Assembly (NCBI RefSeq): GCF_016107325.1
Contig: NZ_RCVT01000001.1
Coordinates: 930,001 to 994,000 of the forward strand
Direction of reading: 5' to 3'
Source: Sphingomonas sp. MA1305
GTDB lineage: Bacteria > Pseudomonadota > Alphaproteobacteria > Sphingomonadales > Sphingomonadaceae
Length of the DNA: 64,000 nucleotides
Below, piece by piece: positions 15,331 to 21,694 of this stretch (the stretch's first letter is position 1; each line of letters opens with the position of its first letter). A program made the translations under genes and the position numbers. The notes under the pieces are model-generated. The model did no database searches and was not told where the DNA came from. It saw nothing but the letters and a program-made list of their open reading frames with translations.

Positions 15331-17610
15331 TCAGCGCAACCGCTCGATCGCCTGGGCGAGGGCGACATACAGCTTGCCCATGTCCGACGACAGCAGCGTG
15401 ACGCCGAGCGGCGACCCGTCGCGCTGCGCCAGGATCGTGCGCAGCATGCTTTCGAAATCATGGATGTACCGGTTCACCGCCTCGCGGAAGCTGGCATCGT
15501 CGTCGTAGAGGCGCGCGATCTCGCGCGCGTCGCCGGGTTCGAGGATGCGCACGGCGCGGCGGGTGAACACGCCGCGATCGCCCTTCAGATAGGCGGCCCA
15601 GGCACTGTCGCTGACATCGGGTGCGAACGCCTTGGTCACGTCGATCGCCGCCGAATTAAGCGACTCGATCAGCAGCGAGGCGCGTCGCGCGAAGCTGTTG
15701 CGCTCGGCCTCCTCGCGGTCCTGGCGTGCGTCTTCGATCCGCGTCTCGACCAGCGCGGTGCTGTCGAGGATCGTCTGCACCTGCGCGGCAAGCCGTTCGG
15801 TGGCGCGGGTCGCTGCATCGACCGCGCTGTCGGTGGCGTCGGCGATCGCACGCACCTGCCGCTCCACGGTGTCGCTGGTGGCGCGACGCATCGCGTCGGC
15901 GCTGGCCTGTTCGAGCGCGTCGGCCGCCTCGGGGATGACGGAGGCGAGCGTATCGCGCGCACGGTCCGCCGCGGTCGCCGCCGTGTCGCGCACCCGCAAC
16001 AGGGCATCGACCAGCCGCGGCGCCGCTTCTTCCGCGAAACGGTGCGTCCGCTCGATCGTCTCGTCGACCATCGTGCCGAGCGCGTCGGCCTTGTCGCGGC
16101 CTTCGTTGAGCGTCTGCAGCAACCCTTGCGACAGCTGGTCGAGCGTGCGGCGCTGATCGGCGATGACGCCGGCGATCGCCTCGATCGCGTCATGCGTGCT
16201 TTCCGCGGCGGTGACGAGCGCAAGCAGTTCCGGCTTGGCGGCGACGACGACCTGCTTGCTCGCGGTGATCTTGCCATCGAGCCGGGTCAGCGCCTCTGGC
16301 AGGGTTTCGTCGATCTCGCGCGCCGCGGCGTCCAGCGCGATCAGCAGCGATTCGGTGGTGCCGATGGTCTTGGTCGCCATCGCCTCGCCGGTGCGCAGCG
16401 CCTCGGTCATAGCATCCGCCGATCCGCCCAGCGCGCTGATCGAGGCGGCGAGCATCTGCGTCCGCTCGACCCCCTGGCCGTGCAGCGCGTCCAGCCGCTG
16501 CTCGACGCGATCGACCTCCGCGTCGATGACCACGAGCATGTCGTCGCTGGCGGTGCGATGCTGGTCGAGCCGGGCGACGACGCGGTCGATTACATCCTCG
16601 ACCGCGGCGATCCGCTCGCCGAGCGCGTCGGCGCTGTCGCGCGCGGCGCGGTCGAGTGCGGCCTGATTGGCGTGGAGCATCGCCAGCATCGCCTCGCCCT
16701 GCGCAGCGATGCCCTTGCGCGCCTCGTCGACCGCGTCGGCGGTGCGCCCGAGCAGGGCGTCGACCTCGCCCGACATTTCACTCGTCACCGCCTCGAGGCG
16801 GGCGCCCGCGGTCTCGCTGGTCGCCTCCATCCGGGCGAGATGCGCGGCGAGCCGCTGTGCCGCGCCGCCGGCGATCAGATCGGCTTCGCGCCCGCGATCG
16901 ACCAGCGCGGCAAGATGGCCTTCCAGCGCGGCGGCATGCGCACCGGCGGTCAGGCCGCTCGCTTCGAGCAGGCGCCCGGCCTCCAGGATTTCCGACTGGG
17001 CGCGGGGTAGCGAGGCGAGCAGCACCCCGACGTTCGCCTGCGTCGTCGTCGCGGCGTCGGACAGGGAGCGGGCATGCGCTTCCGCCTGCTGGATCTCATC
17101 GCCAATGCCCCGCCCGATCGCCGCCAGCCGCTGGGTGGCGGCATCGCCCATCGTGCTCAGCGTGGTGATCTGTTCGGCGAGCATCTGACGATTGACGTCG
17201 AGCGAGCGCGATAGCACGCCCACCGTGCGCTCCAGGCTTTCCGCCTCCGCTCGCATCGCCCGGGCGGTGTCGCCGAACCGGCGCGCCTCGGCGCGGCTAG
17301 TGCGCAGCGCGAGCAGGCAGACGATGCCGATCAGCGCCGGCACGCTGGCCAGCGCGGCGATCAACTGGACCAGCGCCACCGGCTGCAAAAGGCCAAGATC
17401 GTCGCGGACCAGCCACAGCATCGCACCGAGCCACACCAGGCTGAGCACGGTCGCACCGGCGGGCAGAATCCAGCGTCGTGGGGTCGGCTCCGCCCCCACC
17501 GGCAATGTCCAGGCGGCATTGTCAGACAGGTCGAGCGTATCATGAGCCATGGCGGCGCCCTCGTCATAGCGGTTGGTGCTGCCGGCCTTCGCCCGCATGT
17601 CGACGATCAT
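15331..17610 (-). CDS. Large two-helix membrane protein with long coiled coil (TipN-like architecture)
   Basis: About 759 aa. After a polar N-terminus there are two membrane helices (about residues 49-68 and 76-102), then some 530 residues of Ala/Glu/Arg/Leu-rich helix with no proline breaks, predicting a long cytoplasmic coiled coil. A distinct C-terminal domain follows (SLLIESLNSAAIDVTKAF, later REAVNRYIHDFESMLRTIL and LLSSDMGKLYVALAQAIERL). ATG 17610 has an AGGGGG ribosome-binding site 5 bases upstream. GTG 17616 and ATG 17550 (MAHDTLDL, also with a fair site) are alternatives. The layout resembles the Caulobacter polarity factor TipN, but homology is not shown. It is divergent from the Hpt-like gene at 17,711, with a shared 100-base gap. 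Confidence 0.85.
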   Translation of the reverse strand: MIVDMRAKAGSTNRYDEGAAMAHDTLDLSDNAAWTLPVGAEPTPRRWILPAGATVLSLVWLGAMLWLVRDDLGLLQPVALVQLIAALASVPALIGIVCLLALRTSRAEARRFGDTARAMRAEAESLERTVGVLSRSLDVNRQMLAEQITTLSTMGDAATQRLAAIGRGIGDEIQQAEAHARSLSDAATTTQANVGVLLASLPRAQSEILEAGRLLEASGLTAGAHAAALEGHLAALVDRGREADLIAGGAAQRLAAHLARMEATSETAGARLEAVTSEMSGEVDALLGRTADAVDEARKGIAAQGEAMLAMLHANQAALDRAARDSADALGERIAAVEDVIDRVVARLDQHRTASDDMLVVIDAEVDRVEQRLDALHGQGVERTQMLAASISALGGSADAMTEALRTGEAMATKTIGTTESLLIALDAAAREIDETLPEALTRLDGKITASKQVVVAAKPELLALVTAAESTHDAIEAIAGVIADQRRTLDQLSQGLLQTLNEGRDKADALGTMVDETIERTHRFAEEAAPRLVDALLRVRDTAATAADRARDTLASVIPEAADALEQASADAMRRATSDTVERQVRAIADATDSAVDAATRATERLAAQVQTILDSTALVETRIEDARQDREEAERNSFARRASLLIESLNSAAIDVTKAFAPDVSDSAWAAYLKGDRGVFTRRAVRILEPGDAREIARLYDDDASFREAVNRYIHDFESMLRTILAQRDGSPLGVTLLSSDMGKLYVALAQAIERLR

Positions 17611-17710
17611 GAACACCCCCTGATAGTGGCGGGGAACTTAGCCAGCTTTGCTCCGTCGACAAAGCGAAACCGCAACGAAGCGTTAAGCGGTGCCCCGCTA
17701 GGGTCGGTTC

Positions 17711-18001
17711 ATGGCCTATGACCCCGGAGCGATCGATGCGACCCTCACCGCGGCGGTGGGCGATGCGCCCGCGCTGATCGCGGAACTGCGCGTCGCCTTC
17801 GTCGAAAGCGCCGACAGCGCGGTCCAGGCGCTGGAGCAGGCACAGAGCGATGCCGAATGGCGCGATGCCGCGGCGCGGTTGACCGGTCTGGCGGCGAGCT
17901 TCGGCGCGGTGCGCCTGATGGCGATGGCCAACCGGGCGGCGACCCTGCCGCACGATGCGCCGACGCTGGCCAAGCTGAAGCGCACCGTCGCGCGCCTCTG
18001 A
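17711..18001 (+). CDS. Hpt-like protein lacking the phospho-acceptor histidine
   Basis: A 96-aa all-helical protein with the length and pattern of a single histidine-phosphotransfer (Hpt) domain: an acidic N-terminal helix, then AARLTGLAASFGAVRLMAMA, which aligns with the usual AHTLKGSSANLGA motif. The residue at the phosphorylated histidine position is alanine (residue 55, codon 17873-17875) and the following lysine is threonine. It therefore cannot act as a classical phosphotransfer protein. It may bind partners as a pseudo-Hpt. It is the first gene of a + strand series that ends in an equally unusual kinase-like gene. Assignment to the Hpt fold is by pattern only. Confidence 0.75.
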   Translation: MAYDPGAIDATLTAAVGDAPALIAELRVAFVESADSAVQALEQAQSDAEWRDAAARLTGLAASFGAVRLMAMANRAATLPHDAPTLAKLKRTVARL

Positions 18002-18064: not shown

Positions 18065-19246
18065 ATGCTCGCCGGCCTTCTCTTTGCCCTGCACGATGCG
18101 GACGACCGGCCGACGATGCTGACGGCGACCCTGCCGTTCGGCGGGGTGACGCTGATCGAATATCAGGCGCGGTTGCTCGTCGCCGCGGGTGCGTCGCAAC
18201 TGGTCATCGTCGTTGCCCGACTGACCCCGGAACTGCTCGGCGCGATCAACCGCATCGGTCGCCGCGGGATCGCGGTCGACACCGTCCGCACCGCCGCCGA
18301 AGCCGCCGAGAAGCTGCATCCCCTGGCACATGTCGTGATGCTTGCCGACGGCCTGACGACCACCGAGGAGATGATCGGCGCCTTCGCCCAGCCGGGCAGC
18401 GACGCGCTGCTCGTCGTGCCGGAGGATGCGGCGCCGCCGGGCTATGAACGCGTCGGCGGCGGCATGGTCTGGGCGGGCATCGCGCGGCTGGAGGCTCGGC
18501 GGGTTGCCGAACTTGCCGCCTTGCCGCGCGACTATGACGTGCCGTCGACGCTGGTCCGGCTGGCGGCGCAGGCGGGGGCGGTCAACCTGCTGCTGCCGCA
18601 GCCCGCGATGCGCGCCGGTCATGCGATCGGTCATGGCGGCGCAGCGTTGGAGGCGCGGGGGCGTGCGGTCCTGTCGGCGATGGTGGCGGGGCGCAGCGGT
18701 TGGTTCGACCGCTTCGTCGTCGCCCCGATCGCCCGTGCGCTGATTCCCGTGCTGGTGCCGCGCAGCATCCCGGCCTTGGGTGTTGCCGCTGGTGGCGGCG
18801 CGCTCGGCCTGATCGCGCTGGCGTCGATCTGGTTCGGTCATCCGGTCATCGGCTTGGGTCTCGCTGTGCTCGGCGGGATCGGCGTGGCACTGGCGAGCGT
18901 GCTCGCCGATCTGCGCGACGACGCCGGCATGGCGCGCGGTCTGGCCGCGGCGGCGCTCGTGCTGCCGGCACTGACCGCGCTGCTCTACGGCGATGCCGAG
19001 ATGCGGCGCAGCGCGGAGGGCGCGACGCTGGCCCTGGCTTTTGCGCTGCTGCTCGTCGCGGCGCTCGGCGAGCGCGCGATCGGCCCCGCGACGCGGCCGA
19101 GCTGGTGGGGCAGCGCGCCCGCCTATCTGGTCGTGTTGCTGGCCGGGGCGATCGTCGCCGCGCCGACATTGGGCCTCACCGCGGCGACGCTCTATGCCGG
19201 CGCCACCGCGGCGGCCGCGATCGAACGCCTGCGGCGCCAGCCTTAG
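18065..19246 (+). CDS. Degenerate nucleotidyltransferase / CDP-alcohol phosphotransferase-like fusion
   Basis: 393 aa. Residues about 1-180 look like a sugar-phosphate nucleotidyltransferase Rossmann domain (VTLIEYQARLLVAAGASQLV, then HVVMLADGL). The N-terminal glycine-rich GxGxR...PK signature is replaced by FALHDADDRPTMLTATLPF. Residues about 215-393 contain five or six hydrophobic helices. Their order after GWFDRFVVAPIARAL resembles the membrane part of CDP-alcohol phosphatidyltransferases, but the metal-binding DGxxAR...GxxxD motif is absent (LADLRDDAGMARG in its place). The overall layout recalls inositol-phosphate cytidylyltransferase/phosphotransferase fusions. Catalysis by either half is doubtful. 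Location would be the cytoplasmic membrane. Confidence 0.7.
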   Translation: MLAGLLFALHDADDRPTMLTATLPFGGVTLIEYQARLLVAAGASQLVIVVARLTPELLGAINRIGRRGIAVDTVRTAAEAAEKLHPLAHVVMLADGLTTTEEMIGAFAQPGSDALLVVPEDAAPPGYERVGGGMVWAGIARLEARRVAELAALPRDYDVPSTLVRLAAQAGAVNLLLPQPAMRAGHAIGHGGAALEARGRAVLSAMVAGRSGWFDRFVVAPIARALIPVLVPRSIPALGVAAGGGALGLIALASIWFGHPVIGLGLAVLGGIGVALASVLADLRDDAGMARGLAAAALVLPALTALLYGDAEMRRSAEGATLALAFALLLVAALGERAIGPATRPSWWGSAPAYLVVLLAGAIVAAPTLGLTAATLYAGATAAAAIERLRRQP

Positions 19247-19283: not shown

Positions 19284-20354
19284 ATGACGGTCGAGCCGGA
19301 TCCCCCGCACAGCCCCACGCCGGATGCGCGCCTTGCTGCCGCGCGCCGCCTGGCGGCGCAGGCGGACGGGCGGCTGGGCGCGACGATCGTCGATTTCTTC
19401 CTGCCCGACGACGCCAGGCTCGACGAGCGGACGCGGCTGGCGCTCGGCCAGACGCTGGCCGGTGCGGTCCGGGCGATCGAAACGGACATCCGCCACCACG
19501 CGGCGCGGCTGCTGGCCCCGCGCGGCGCAACGATGCCGGCGGCGGCGGATGTGCTGCGTCGCCTGTCGCGCGCCGGCTTATTGCGCGACCGTGCGCTGAT
19601 CGATGAATTGCTCGGCCAGGTGCGCTGCGATCAGATCGCCGAGGCGCTGGTGCCCCAGGTCGGTGGGCCGGATCAGCCGAGTCTGCTGATCCGTCTTGCC
19701 CAAGTCGACGATGGCGTCGTCGCGACCGCCGCCCGCGCGCTATTGGCCGCCGAGGCGCAGCGCCGTGCGGCGGTCGAGCAGGAGCGGGTGCTGCACGGCA
19801 CGCTGCCGGCGGCGCTGCATCGGCAATTGGTCTGGTGGGTCGCTGCCGCAGTGCGCGAGGCACAAGCGGACGATGCTGCCCTCGATCAGGCGGTGGTCGA
19901 GGCCGCGCAGCGCAATCTCGCGGCGCATGACGAGACGCAGCGGCCGGAAGCGGCGGCGATGCGGCTGGCGATGGCGATCGACGCGCGGCCCGACGAACTT
20001 GGCCCCTTGCTGGTCGATACGCTCGGCGATCGGCGCCTGCTCCTCTTCATCGCCGTGCTCGCCCGCGCGACCCGGCTCGATTTCGTCGCCACGCGGCAGA
20101 TCGTGGTAGAACCGGAGGGGGATCGCCTGTGGCTGGCGCTGCGCGCGATCGACCTCGATCGGGCGACGATCGCCCGCATCGCGCTGGCGCTGGCGGATGC
20201 CGATCCTCGCCGCGACATCGAGGCGTTCGCGGATGCGCTCGACGCGATCGTCGCCGTACCGGTGGAGAGCGCCCGCGCAGCGCTGGCGCCGCTGACGTTG
20301 CATGCCGAATTGCGCGTGGCGATCGATGCCCTGGCGCGGGAGGGCGCGCGATGA
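19284..20354 (+). CDS. DUF2336 domain-containing protein
   Basis: A 356-aa soluble, almost entirely helical protein rich in Ala, Arg and Leu. Repeating helical pairs (for example ADVLRRLSRAGLLRDRALIDELL and SLLIRLAQVDDGVVATAARAL) give a HEAT-like appearance typical of DUF2336 proteins, an alphaproteobacterial family of unknown function. It starts at ATG 19284. Its stop overlaps the ATG of the kinase-like gene (ATGA), so the two are translationally coupled and probably work together. No enzyme motif is visible. Confidence 0.75.
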   Translation: MTVEPDPPHSPTPDARLAAARRLAAQADGRLGATIVDFFLPDDARLDERTRLALGQTLAGAVRAIETDIRHHAARLLAPRGATMPAAADVLRRLSRAGLLRDRALIDELLGQVRCDQIAEALVPQVGGPDQPSLLIRLAQVDDGVVATAARALLAAEAQRRAAVEQERVLHGTLPAALHRQLVWWVAAAVREAQADDAALDQAVVEAAQRNLAAHDETQRPEAAAMRLAMAIDARPDELGPLLVDTLGDRRLLLFIAVLARATRLDFVATRQIVVEPEGDRLWLALRAIDLDRATIARIALALADADPRRDIEAFADALDAIVAVPVESARAALAPLTLHAELRVAIDALAREGAR

Positions 20355-21694
20355 GACCGGGCACCATGCGCGACCCGATCGTCGTTCAGGGCACGCTCGA
20401 CCGCGACGGCCGGCTGCTCGCCGCCGATCCGGCGCTGCTGACGCTGAACGCGGCGGCGGGGGGCGAGATCGGCATGCCGCTCGCCATCGCCCCGATTGCG
20501 GCGGTGGCACGGCTGGCGCAGCGGCTCGGCGTGCCGGTGACGCGGCAGGTCACCGTCGCCGATCCGGAGGCCGACCTGATCCTCTCGGTCCGGGCCGAGC
20601 CGACGGTCGACCAGTTGCGCCTCGTCACCACCGGCTGGCAGGAGCGCCCCGGGGCCATTCCGGCGACGGCGGAGGCGGTGCCCGTGGCCGGCGCCGATGA
20701 TCTCGCCTGGGAAACCGACGGCGGCCTGCACCTCACCTTCGTCGCGCATGACGGCGCGGCCCGCTACGGCGTCGACCCGCAGGCCTTGCTCGGACAGCCG
20801 CTGACCGCGATGTTCGCGCTCGACGCGGATCGCGACGGCGCGATGCCGATCCTCGATGCGGTCGCCCGCCGCCGCTGGGACGGGGTGCAGCCGGCCCGGC
20901 TGCGCCAGGGCGATGTCGCAATGCTGCTCAGCGCCACCATACGCCGGGACGCCGCCGGCGGCATGGCCGGGCTGATCGGCGTGGCGCGCCCCGTCATCAC
21001 CGCACCGACGGCAGCGCGCCCGTCCTTGACGCCCGGCTTCACCCGCGGCCTCGACCGCGCGTTGCGCAGCCCGCTGGCGAAGATCATCGCCCATGCCGAC
21101 ACGATTCATGCGCAGGCGGAAGGCCCGATCCAGGCGGACTATGCCGATTATGCCTCGGACATCGCCAATGCCGGCCGGCATCTGCTTGGCTTGGTCGACG
21201 ATCTGGTCGATCTCGCCGCGGTCGAGCGGCCGGATTTTGCGCTCACCACGGAGCCGATCGACATGGCCGACGTCGCGCGCCGCGCCGCGGGGCTGCTGTC
21301 GGTCAAGGCAGCCAATGCCGATGTCGCGATCGCCCGGCCGCTGGCGGAGGCGTCGGTGCCGGCGCTGGGCGATTTTCGCCGTGCCTTGCAGATCCTGGTC
21401 AATCTGATCGGCAATGCCGTCCGCTATTCGCCGCCGGGCGGAGTCGTCACGGTCACCGCCGCGCGGGTCGGCACAATGGCCGAAGCGGTGGTCGCGGATC
21501 AGGGCAAGGGCATCGCGGGCGACGATCAGGCGCGCATCTTCGAAAAGTTCGAGCGGGTCGACCCCAGCGAGCCGGGCGGCAACGGCCTCGGCCTCTATAT
21601 CGCGCGGCGGCTGGCGCGGGCGATGGGCGGCGACCTGACGGTGGCGAGCGAGCCGGGCGAGGGTGCGACCTTCACCCTGACCCTGCCGGCCTGA
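20351..21694 (+). CDS. Sensor histidine kinase-like protein with arginine in place of the H-box histidine
   Basis: 447 aa, no membrane helix. There is a PAS-like N-terminal part (about 1-215), then a DHp-like pair of helices and a C-terminal HATPase_c domain. The H-box reads LDRALRSPLAKIIAHAD where SHELRTPL is usual; the acceptor position is Arg236 (codon 21056-21058). The ATP-binding domain looks intact: N-box NLIGNAVRYS (N351, N355), G1 box DQGKGIAG (D383), F-box IFEKFERV and G2 box GNGLGL (410-415). It should bind ATP but not autophosphorylate on the usual histidine. It starts at ATG 20351, overlapping the DUF2336 stop; ATG 20366 is an alternative. The 3' end faces the gltA gene pair. Confidence 0.85.
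   Translation: MRPGTMRDPIVVQGTLDRDGRLLAADPALLTLNAAAGGEIGMPLAIAPIAAVARLAQRLGVPVTRQVTVADPEADLILSVRAEPTVDQLRLVTTGWQERPGAIPATAEAVPVAGADDLAWETDGGLHLTFVAHDGAARYGVDPQALLGQPLTAMFALDADRDGAMPILDAVARRRWDGVQPARLRQGDVAMLLSATIRRDAAGGMAGLIGVARPVITAPTAARPSLTPGFTRGLDRALRSPLAKIIAHADTIHAQAEGPIQADYADYASDIANAGRHLLGLVDDLVDLAAVERPDFALTTEPIDMADVARRAAGLLSVKAANADVAIARPLAEASVPALGDFRRALQILVNLIGNAVRYSPPGGVVTVTAARVGTMAEAVVADQGKGIAGDDQARIFEKFERVDPSEPGGNGLGLYIARRLARAMGGDLTVASEPGEGATFTLTLPA

Follow-up and report, generated by a model that had tools for sequence, protein, structure and literature searches.

The locus described here raises the question of what a histidine-kinase-like protein does when the histidine that should accept the phosphate has been replaced and the ATP site has been kept. 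We analysed one 64,000-nucleotide stretch of DNA from Sphingomonas sp. MA1305 (positions 930,001 to 994,000 of contig NZ_RCVT01000001.1; hereafter the window), in which the gene for such a protein, its domains and its neighbours are arranged as follows:

15331..17616, minus strand: long divergent protein, coiled-coil by look, with two hydrophobic stretches near the N-terminus
17711..18001, plus strand: Hpt-like protein of 96 residues, with Ala55 at the phosphotransfer His site; three genes upstream of the kinase
18065..19246, plus strand: nucleotidyltransferase-like protein, hydrophobic in its C-terminal half, for which Pfam gives a weak MobA-like match
19284..20354, plus strand: DUF2336 protein (Pfam), the ancestral neighbour of the kinase
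20351..21694, plus strand: gene of the putative pseudo-histidine kinase, 447 residues, ATG start
20384..20647, plus strand: first PAS-like domain, residues 12-99, from the strand/helix order in the AlphaFold model
20702..20992, plus strand: second PAS domain, residues 118-214, with a Pfam PAS_4 match over 123-215
21032..21223, plus strand: DHp two-helix hairpin, residues 228-291, from Pfam HisKA, the AlphaFold model and fold matches
21053..21076, plus strand: H-box DRALRSPL, residues 235-242, from the alignment with SHELRTPL kinases
21371..21688, plus strand: HATPase_c (CA) domain, residues 341-446; the N, G1, F and G2 boxes are all intact

The kinase-like gene, which starts with ATG, overlaps the end of the DUF2336 gene before it by 4 nucleotides, and its closest named loci are those of Sphingomonas (S. 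aquatilis and S. liriopis), with 68% identity. The 447-residue protein contains no 19-residue stretch with the hydrophobicity expected of a membrane helix. The AlphaFold monomer model, which took 48 relatives as input, has a mean pLDDT of 91.5; the best fold matches of its kinase core are HK853, DivL and other histidine kinases, and the modelled DHp and CA domains together gave Z scores of 22.3 against HK853, 22.0 against DivL and 19.6 against RetS. Based on the DHp hairpin of the model, the protein probably dimerises. In Pfam scans HATPase_c scored 93.3 bits in the window protein and HisKA 22.4 bits, which is below the cut-off of 26.9; among the 48 family members scanned, HATPase_c was found in all 48 and HisKA in 38. 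The PAS models matched few of the same 48 proteins (PAS_4 six, PAS_9 five and PAS three), and the first PAS-like domain of the window protein has no Pfam match.

To follow the H-box across relatives, we aligned 168 distinct sequences, of which 12 are ordinary kinases and 156 are of the window's kind. The latter set includes the window protein and consists of 77 sequences from 35 genus groups and 79 named records, mostly of Sphingomonas. In agreement with the initial annotation, the alignment with SHELRTPL kinases puts Arg236 (nucleotides 21056-21058) at the phospho-His position; Ala237 occupies the Glu position and Ser240 the Thr position. The acceptor His is absent in 155 of the 156 sequences of the window's kind. 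Position 236 is occupied by Arg in 46, Lys in 33, Pro in 21, Ala in 17, Gln in 16 and Gly in 8 of them, and by Asp (5), Thr (3), Glu (3), Val (2), Asn (1) and His (1) in the others; Tyr occurs in none of the 156. The +1 residue (237) is acidic in no sequence and Ala in 126, the +4 residue (240) is Thr in 29, and the +7 Asn is also lost and varies. In the ordinary relatives, His, Glu and Thr stand at positions 236, 237 and 240 in 12 of 12. Because position 236 varies in this way, Arg236 is ruled out as a functional replacement for His, and a special role of the arginine is not supported. With the His missing from 155 sequences and an acidic +1 residue from all 156, it is near certain on these alignments that the protein can no longer autophosphorylate in the known way, as had been proposed from the single sequence.

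A survey by Bourret and colleagues gives the His as missing in 722 of 76,471 HisKA domains, or 0.9% (PMC12632262). Set against that proportion, its absence from 155 of 156 sequences is more than chance. Losses of the His are rare but known; what is unusual here is that the loss runs through a whole family, that the ATP site is intact and that a His-less Hpt is encoded nearby.

We read 32 further loci, namely 30 from family genomes with mostly weaker matches together with L182 and L183, none of which duplicates any of the 156 over the last 150 residues. The His is absent in 21 of them, eight are ordinary SHELRTPL kinases (four of genus g86 and one each of g57, g53, g13 and g8), and three carry a His. 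These three loci (L277, L278 and L280) all belong to genus g25 and carry Ser in the +1 and Pro in the +4 position, and in L130, a fourth genome of this genus, the acceptor site is Arg; hence a His stands there in 3 of the 24 further members, in genus g25 alone. The sole His among the 156 is that of L064, from an uncultured sphingomonad, whose H-box reads DHALRAPL, so that none of the four exceptions has the +1 Glu or the +4 Thr. The expectation that no member of the whole group would have a His was therefore borne out for 155 of the 156 sequences and does not extend to L064 or to the three g25 loci, nor to the ordinary kinases of basal genera, which do have it. In both g25 and L064 the His looks like a further residue sampled at a free site, for g25 because the genus is nested inside the H-less side of the tree described below; a regained acceptor is a conceivable alternative for both.

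The ordinary and the H-less sets were named after the H-box had been seen, so the contrast between the two sets alone would be circular. Trees computed without the eight H-box columns make the split independent of the H-box. Both trees were rooted at the midpoint, with bootstraps that had yet to converge; read with this in mind, the first placed the 39 rows of the reduced H-less set on one side with a support of 98/100, and the second placed 45 H-less rows and the four genus g25 rows on one side with 100/93. In the second tree g25 fell inside the H-less side, with 99/85 for the set that contains it, and the H-less L289 lay outside the group on a long branch, where its placement is unsure. The first tree also included nine matches from a profile search of genomes without a strong match (described below): L182 joined the H-less set, L183 grouped with ordinary kinases from the same order, and the other seven fell elsewhere, among other kinases.

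The gene neighbourhood indicates where the group came from. An ordinary SHELRTPLN kinase adjoins DUF2336 in every one of 20 Sphingomonadales loci, of which 19 were searched with the L163 DUF2336 protein and the last is L163 itself; in other alphaproteobacterial orders, such a kinase stands beside DUF2336 in 9 of 20 loci, read with only about 1.5 kb of flank each. Where the H-boxes of ordinary Sphingomonadales kinases were read, His, Glu and Thr are kept in 20 of 20 loci. Ordinary kinases beside the same DUF2336 gene represent the ancestral state and reveal the descent of the pseudo-kinase: judging from sequence and gene order, it is an old DUF2336-linked kinase whose phosphate chemistry was lost within the Sphingomonadaceae. 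Near the ordinary pair, flgK/flgL-like genes (named by eye) were seen at three of the five listed loci, L163, L161 and L169, the last of which has the flgL-like gene only; these neighbours hint at an ancestral link to motility.

While the H-box decayed, the ATP pocket did not. Asn351, Asn355, Asp383, Gly385, Gly387, Phe397, Gly412 and Gly414 are all present together in 156 of 156 sequences, and the N, G1, F and G2 boxes are thus as intact across the group as the initial annotation had found them in the window protein. Seven columns that are invariant in the 12 ordinary kinases have no majority residue in the 156 (231, 232, 236, 240, 243, 364 and 447), of which the first five cluster around the H-box; the residues that at least 95% of the 156 share with all 12 ordinary kinases are packing residues and those of the ATP boxes. 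Other positions have switched and are conserved on either side, for example Arg244 (Ala in the ordinary kinases), Arg402 (Gln) and Tyr416 (His), which is the pattern expected from a new binding role. The gene is under purifying selection, with dN/dS values of 0.045-0.311 for the whole gene and 0.040-0.254 for DHp and CA in 15 hand-picked pairs, and these low values argue for a function. The prediction that such a protein could still bind ATP is supported in that the DHp and CA fold and ATP binding should remain; binding of ATP by the kinase-like protein is likely.

By these features the protein is best classed as a pseudo-histidine kinase in the broad sense, with a kinase fold kept by descent and kinase functions predicted to be lost, and its output is most likely protein contact. 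We have good, though not full, confidence in a more specific reading, namely a PAS-controlled, ATP-binding pseudo-histidine kinase that acts by protein contact, as DivL does. The DHp domain has been stripped of the phospho-acceptor His, the catalytic Glu and the phosphatase Thr, and the CA domain has been kept by selection. The PAS domains would sense a signal and the CA domain the nucleotide, and a conformational change would be passed through the DHp/CA surface to a bound partner, no phosphate being moved. Candidate partners are another kinase, a response regulator, the Hpt-like protein or the DUF2336 protein.

An unlikely alternative is that the protein is still a kinase, whose CA domain now phosphorylates a different acceptor, namely a Ser, Thr, Tyr or Asp in the same or in some other protein. 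GHKL-fold kinases with other acceptors exist, such as SpoIIAB and pyruvate dehydrogenase kinase, and ATP boxes complete in 156 of 156 sequences go beyond the need of a pure scaffold. The group-specific conservation of Arg244, Arg402 and Tyr416 would also fit, as would Asp283, which is present in 133 of the 156 and replaced by Asn in 11 of the 12 ordinary kinases. Asp283 is, however, only the nearest approach to a group-specific acceptor: in the alignment of the 156, the DHp domain has no Ser, Thr, Tyr or Asp that at least 90% of the H-less group share and that is not equally conserved in the ordinary kinases, which argues against the suggestion that another residue of the same protein is phosphorylated. 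Moreover, SpoIIAB-type kinases have a catalytic Glu at the N-box position four before the equivalent of Asn351; all 156 sequences, like all 12 ordinary relatives, have Gln there.

That the gene lost its role together with its catalytic residues and is now eroding is quite unlikely, although single lineages do show such signs. An ATP-box residue is also lost in 4 of the 32 further loci (L182, L291, L292 and L294), the frames of L168 and L166 are short (341 and 354 residues), and the kinase-like gene of G137 (L274, genus g69) contains one in-frame TGA. G192 lacks the DUF2336 gene as well as the kinase gene, whereas its Hpt-like, NTP-like and coiled genes stay; no kinase-like match was found in G192 or G370, both of genus g69, in which the gene seems to be in the course of being lost. 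Against erosion of the family as a whole stand the complete ATP boxes of the 156 sequences, the low dN/dS and a match at E <= 1e-42 in 199 of 249 family genomes, at least eight of the 199 being ordinary kinases. A profile search of 25 genomes without a strong match found one at E <= 1e-35 in 17 and none in 8, and therefore some lineages live without the gene. A sequencing error or a fresh pseudogene is ruled out separately, by the low dN/dS and by the fact that, among the matches listed, an internal stop occurs in G137 alone.

It is very unlikely that the protein serves a response-regulator partner by docking to it and keeping some phosphatase activity. The +4 Thr is used for the phosphatase activity of HisKA proteins, and since it is kept in 29 of the 156 sequences, the phosphatase half of the proposal is improbable. 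The docking half agrees better with the conservation of the DHp surface below the H-box, where Arg239 is kept in 152 of 156 sequences (and is also common in ordinary kinases), Arg244 in 144, and Ile245 and Ala249 in all 156; the same surface in DivL is reported to bind DivK~P (PMC4211667). A protein that docks and catalyses nothing would itself fall under the protein-contact reading. Finally, a hidden acceptor is barely credible, since His248 (the His of IIAHAD, named in the initial annotation as a possible acceptor and ruled out here), despite lying on the same helix, is His in 15 of the 156 and Asn in 109, with no His anywhere in DHp helix 1 in 106, and since His277 of the second helix, although invariant in 156 of 156, is equally so in the 12 ordinary relatives, whose acceptor is a different His, and thus looks structural.

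The plus-strand order of Hpt-like, nucleotidyltransferase-like, DUF2336 and kinase genes recurs, with gaps, in Sphingomonas and related bacteria; after the kinase, on the opposite strand, comes a gene that by eye resembles citrate synthase. By an in-group DUF2336 profile, which was made from loci where tblastn had found DUF2336, a DUF2336-like reading frame lies directly upstream of the pseudo-kinase in 141 of 161 loci and overlaps the kinase start in 127, and up to 20 loci have the pseudo-kinase with no recognisable DUF2336. The genome of the window has one match to the DUF2336 family. Only 10 of 30 genomes were matched by the Pfam DUF2336 model, which indicates that the upstream gene has far diverged in part of the group. 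Our literature search found no paper with the word DUF2336, and for fitness screens of Sphingomonas there was no useful paper among the matches listed.

The nucleotidyltransferase-like protein (18065-19246, plus strand) evolves fast and is found near the locus in most relatives; 9 of 34 members of its family have the weak MobA-like Pfam match. The coiled-coil-looking protein (15331-17616, minus strand) is also linked to the locus in most relatives, and could be a candidate polarity factor. One record, L042, is titled Arthrobacter sp. TPD3018; for all five genes compared it matches at the same positions and with the same rounded identities as S. aquatilis L038, and it is probably a mislabelled Sphingomonas.

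The Hpt-like protein has likewise lost its phosphotransfer residue. The His of the HxLKG motif is absent in 102 of 104 distinct relatives (profile E <= 1e-10, few gaps) and present in L256 and L265, and the rest of the motif is mostly kept. The His is present in L241, L242 and L243, three weaker relatives outside that cut whose genomes encode the ordinary kinase. The survey gives the His as missing in 90 of 10,312 Hpt domains (PMC12632262). Pfam Hpt was matched by 23 of 40 Hpt-like members at E <= 0.01. The model of the window protein is a helix bundle with a pLDDT of 92.4; in a Foldseek search the top three rows and five of the first ten were Hpt proteins, with TM scores up to 0.75 and all with E >= 0.4, and most of the 50 rows were other four-helix bundles. 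A partnership between the Hpt-like protein and the pseudo-kinase is a suggestion only, because in several groups the Hpt-like gene does not adjoin the kinase and in others it lies elsewhere in the genome. Rather tentatively, the cluster might be a whole signalling unit that works without histidine phosphate, in which an ATP-reading pseudo-kinase and a His-less Hpt act through nucleotide-dependent binding alone. On that reading the two proteins, both derived from a phosphorelay and both retained over a long time, might signal to each other or to a shared partner, which is a similarly speculative proposal.

Few pseudo-histidine kinases have been described, the foremost being DivL, and the locus appears to add another family, which spans 35 genus groups of one bacterial family. 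Its ordinary ancestor is alive in further genera of that bacterial family beside the same neighbour, and the two forms provide a natural before-and-after pair for asking what use a kinase core has without phosphate transfer and why its ATP pocket is selected. The His-less Hpt in the same cluster strengthens the case beyond what either protein would do alone. Among the matches listed in our search for pseudo-, degenerate and His-less kinases, nothing on this family was found in titles and the starts of abstracts.

The ordinary DUF2336-associated kinases of alphaproteobacteria, which represent the ancestral state, share the gene pair and the core with the window kinase but keep SHELRTPLN. RetS and NifL are kinase-like regulators that act by protein contact; they likewise use a kinase-like core for contact, and the NifL-NifA complex is among the fold matches of the window kinase, whereas the sequence matches of RetS to it are ordinary for the fold. 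ChpT, Spo0B and PhyT keep the His and have lost ATP binding, so that the window kinase, with the His lost and the ATP site kept, is the mirror image of the ChpT/PhyT type. These three proteins, which serve as phosphotransferases, are described as kinase-derived, with a degenerate catalytic part (PMC5898713).

The closest comparison is with DivL of Caulobacter (PDB 4q20), which is reported to have Tyr in place of the His, to bind DivK~P and to work in vivo without kinase activity (PMC4211667). Both proteins have PAS domains, DHp and CA, and in both the acceptor His is replaced and the other boxes are kept; DivL, with its boxes kept, is nevertheless reported to bind an ATP analogue weakly (PMC4211667). 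Arg553 of DivL, three residues after the Tyr, is given as required for DivK~P binding (PMC4211667), and the conserved Arg239 of the window kinase has the same offset. The two differ in that DivL has a conserved Tyr, whereas the window's group has a variable site and has also lost the +1 Glu and the +4 Thr. The window kinase is not the sphingomonad DivL, which is ruled out by the lack of Tyr in its group and by a separate DivL-like gene in its own genome (C1:1433386-1434048, minus strand), with the H-box SYELRTPL and 4q20 as best PDB match (E 5.6e-39). Given that separate gene, the window kinase would be the second pseudo-histidine kinase of this genome.
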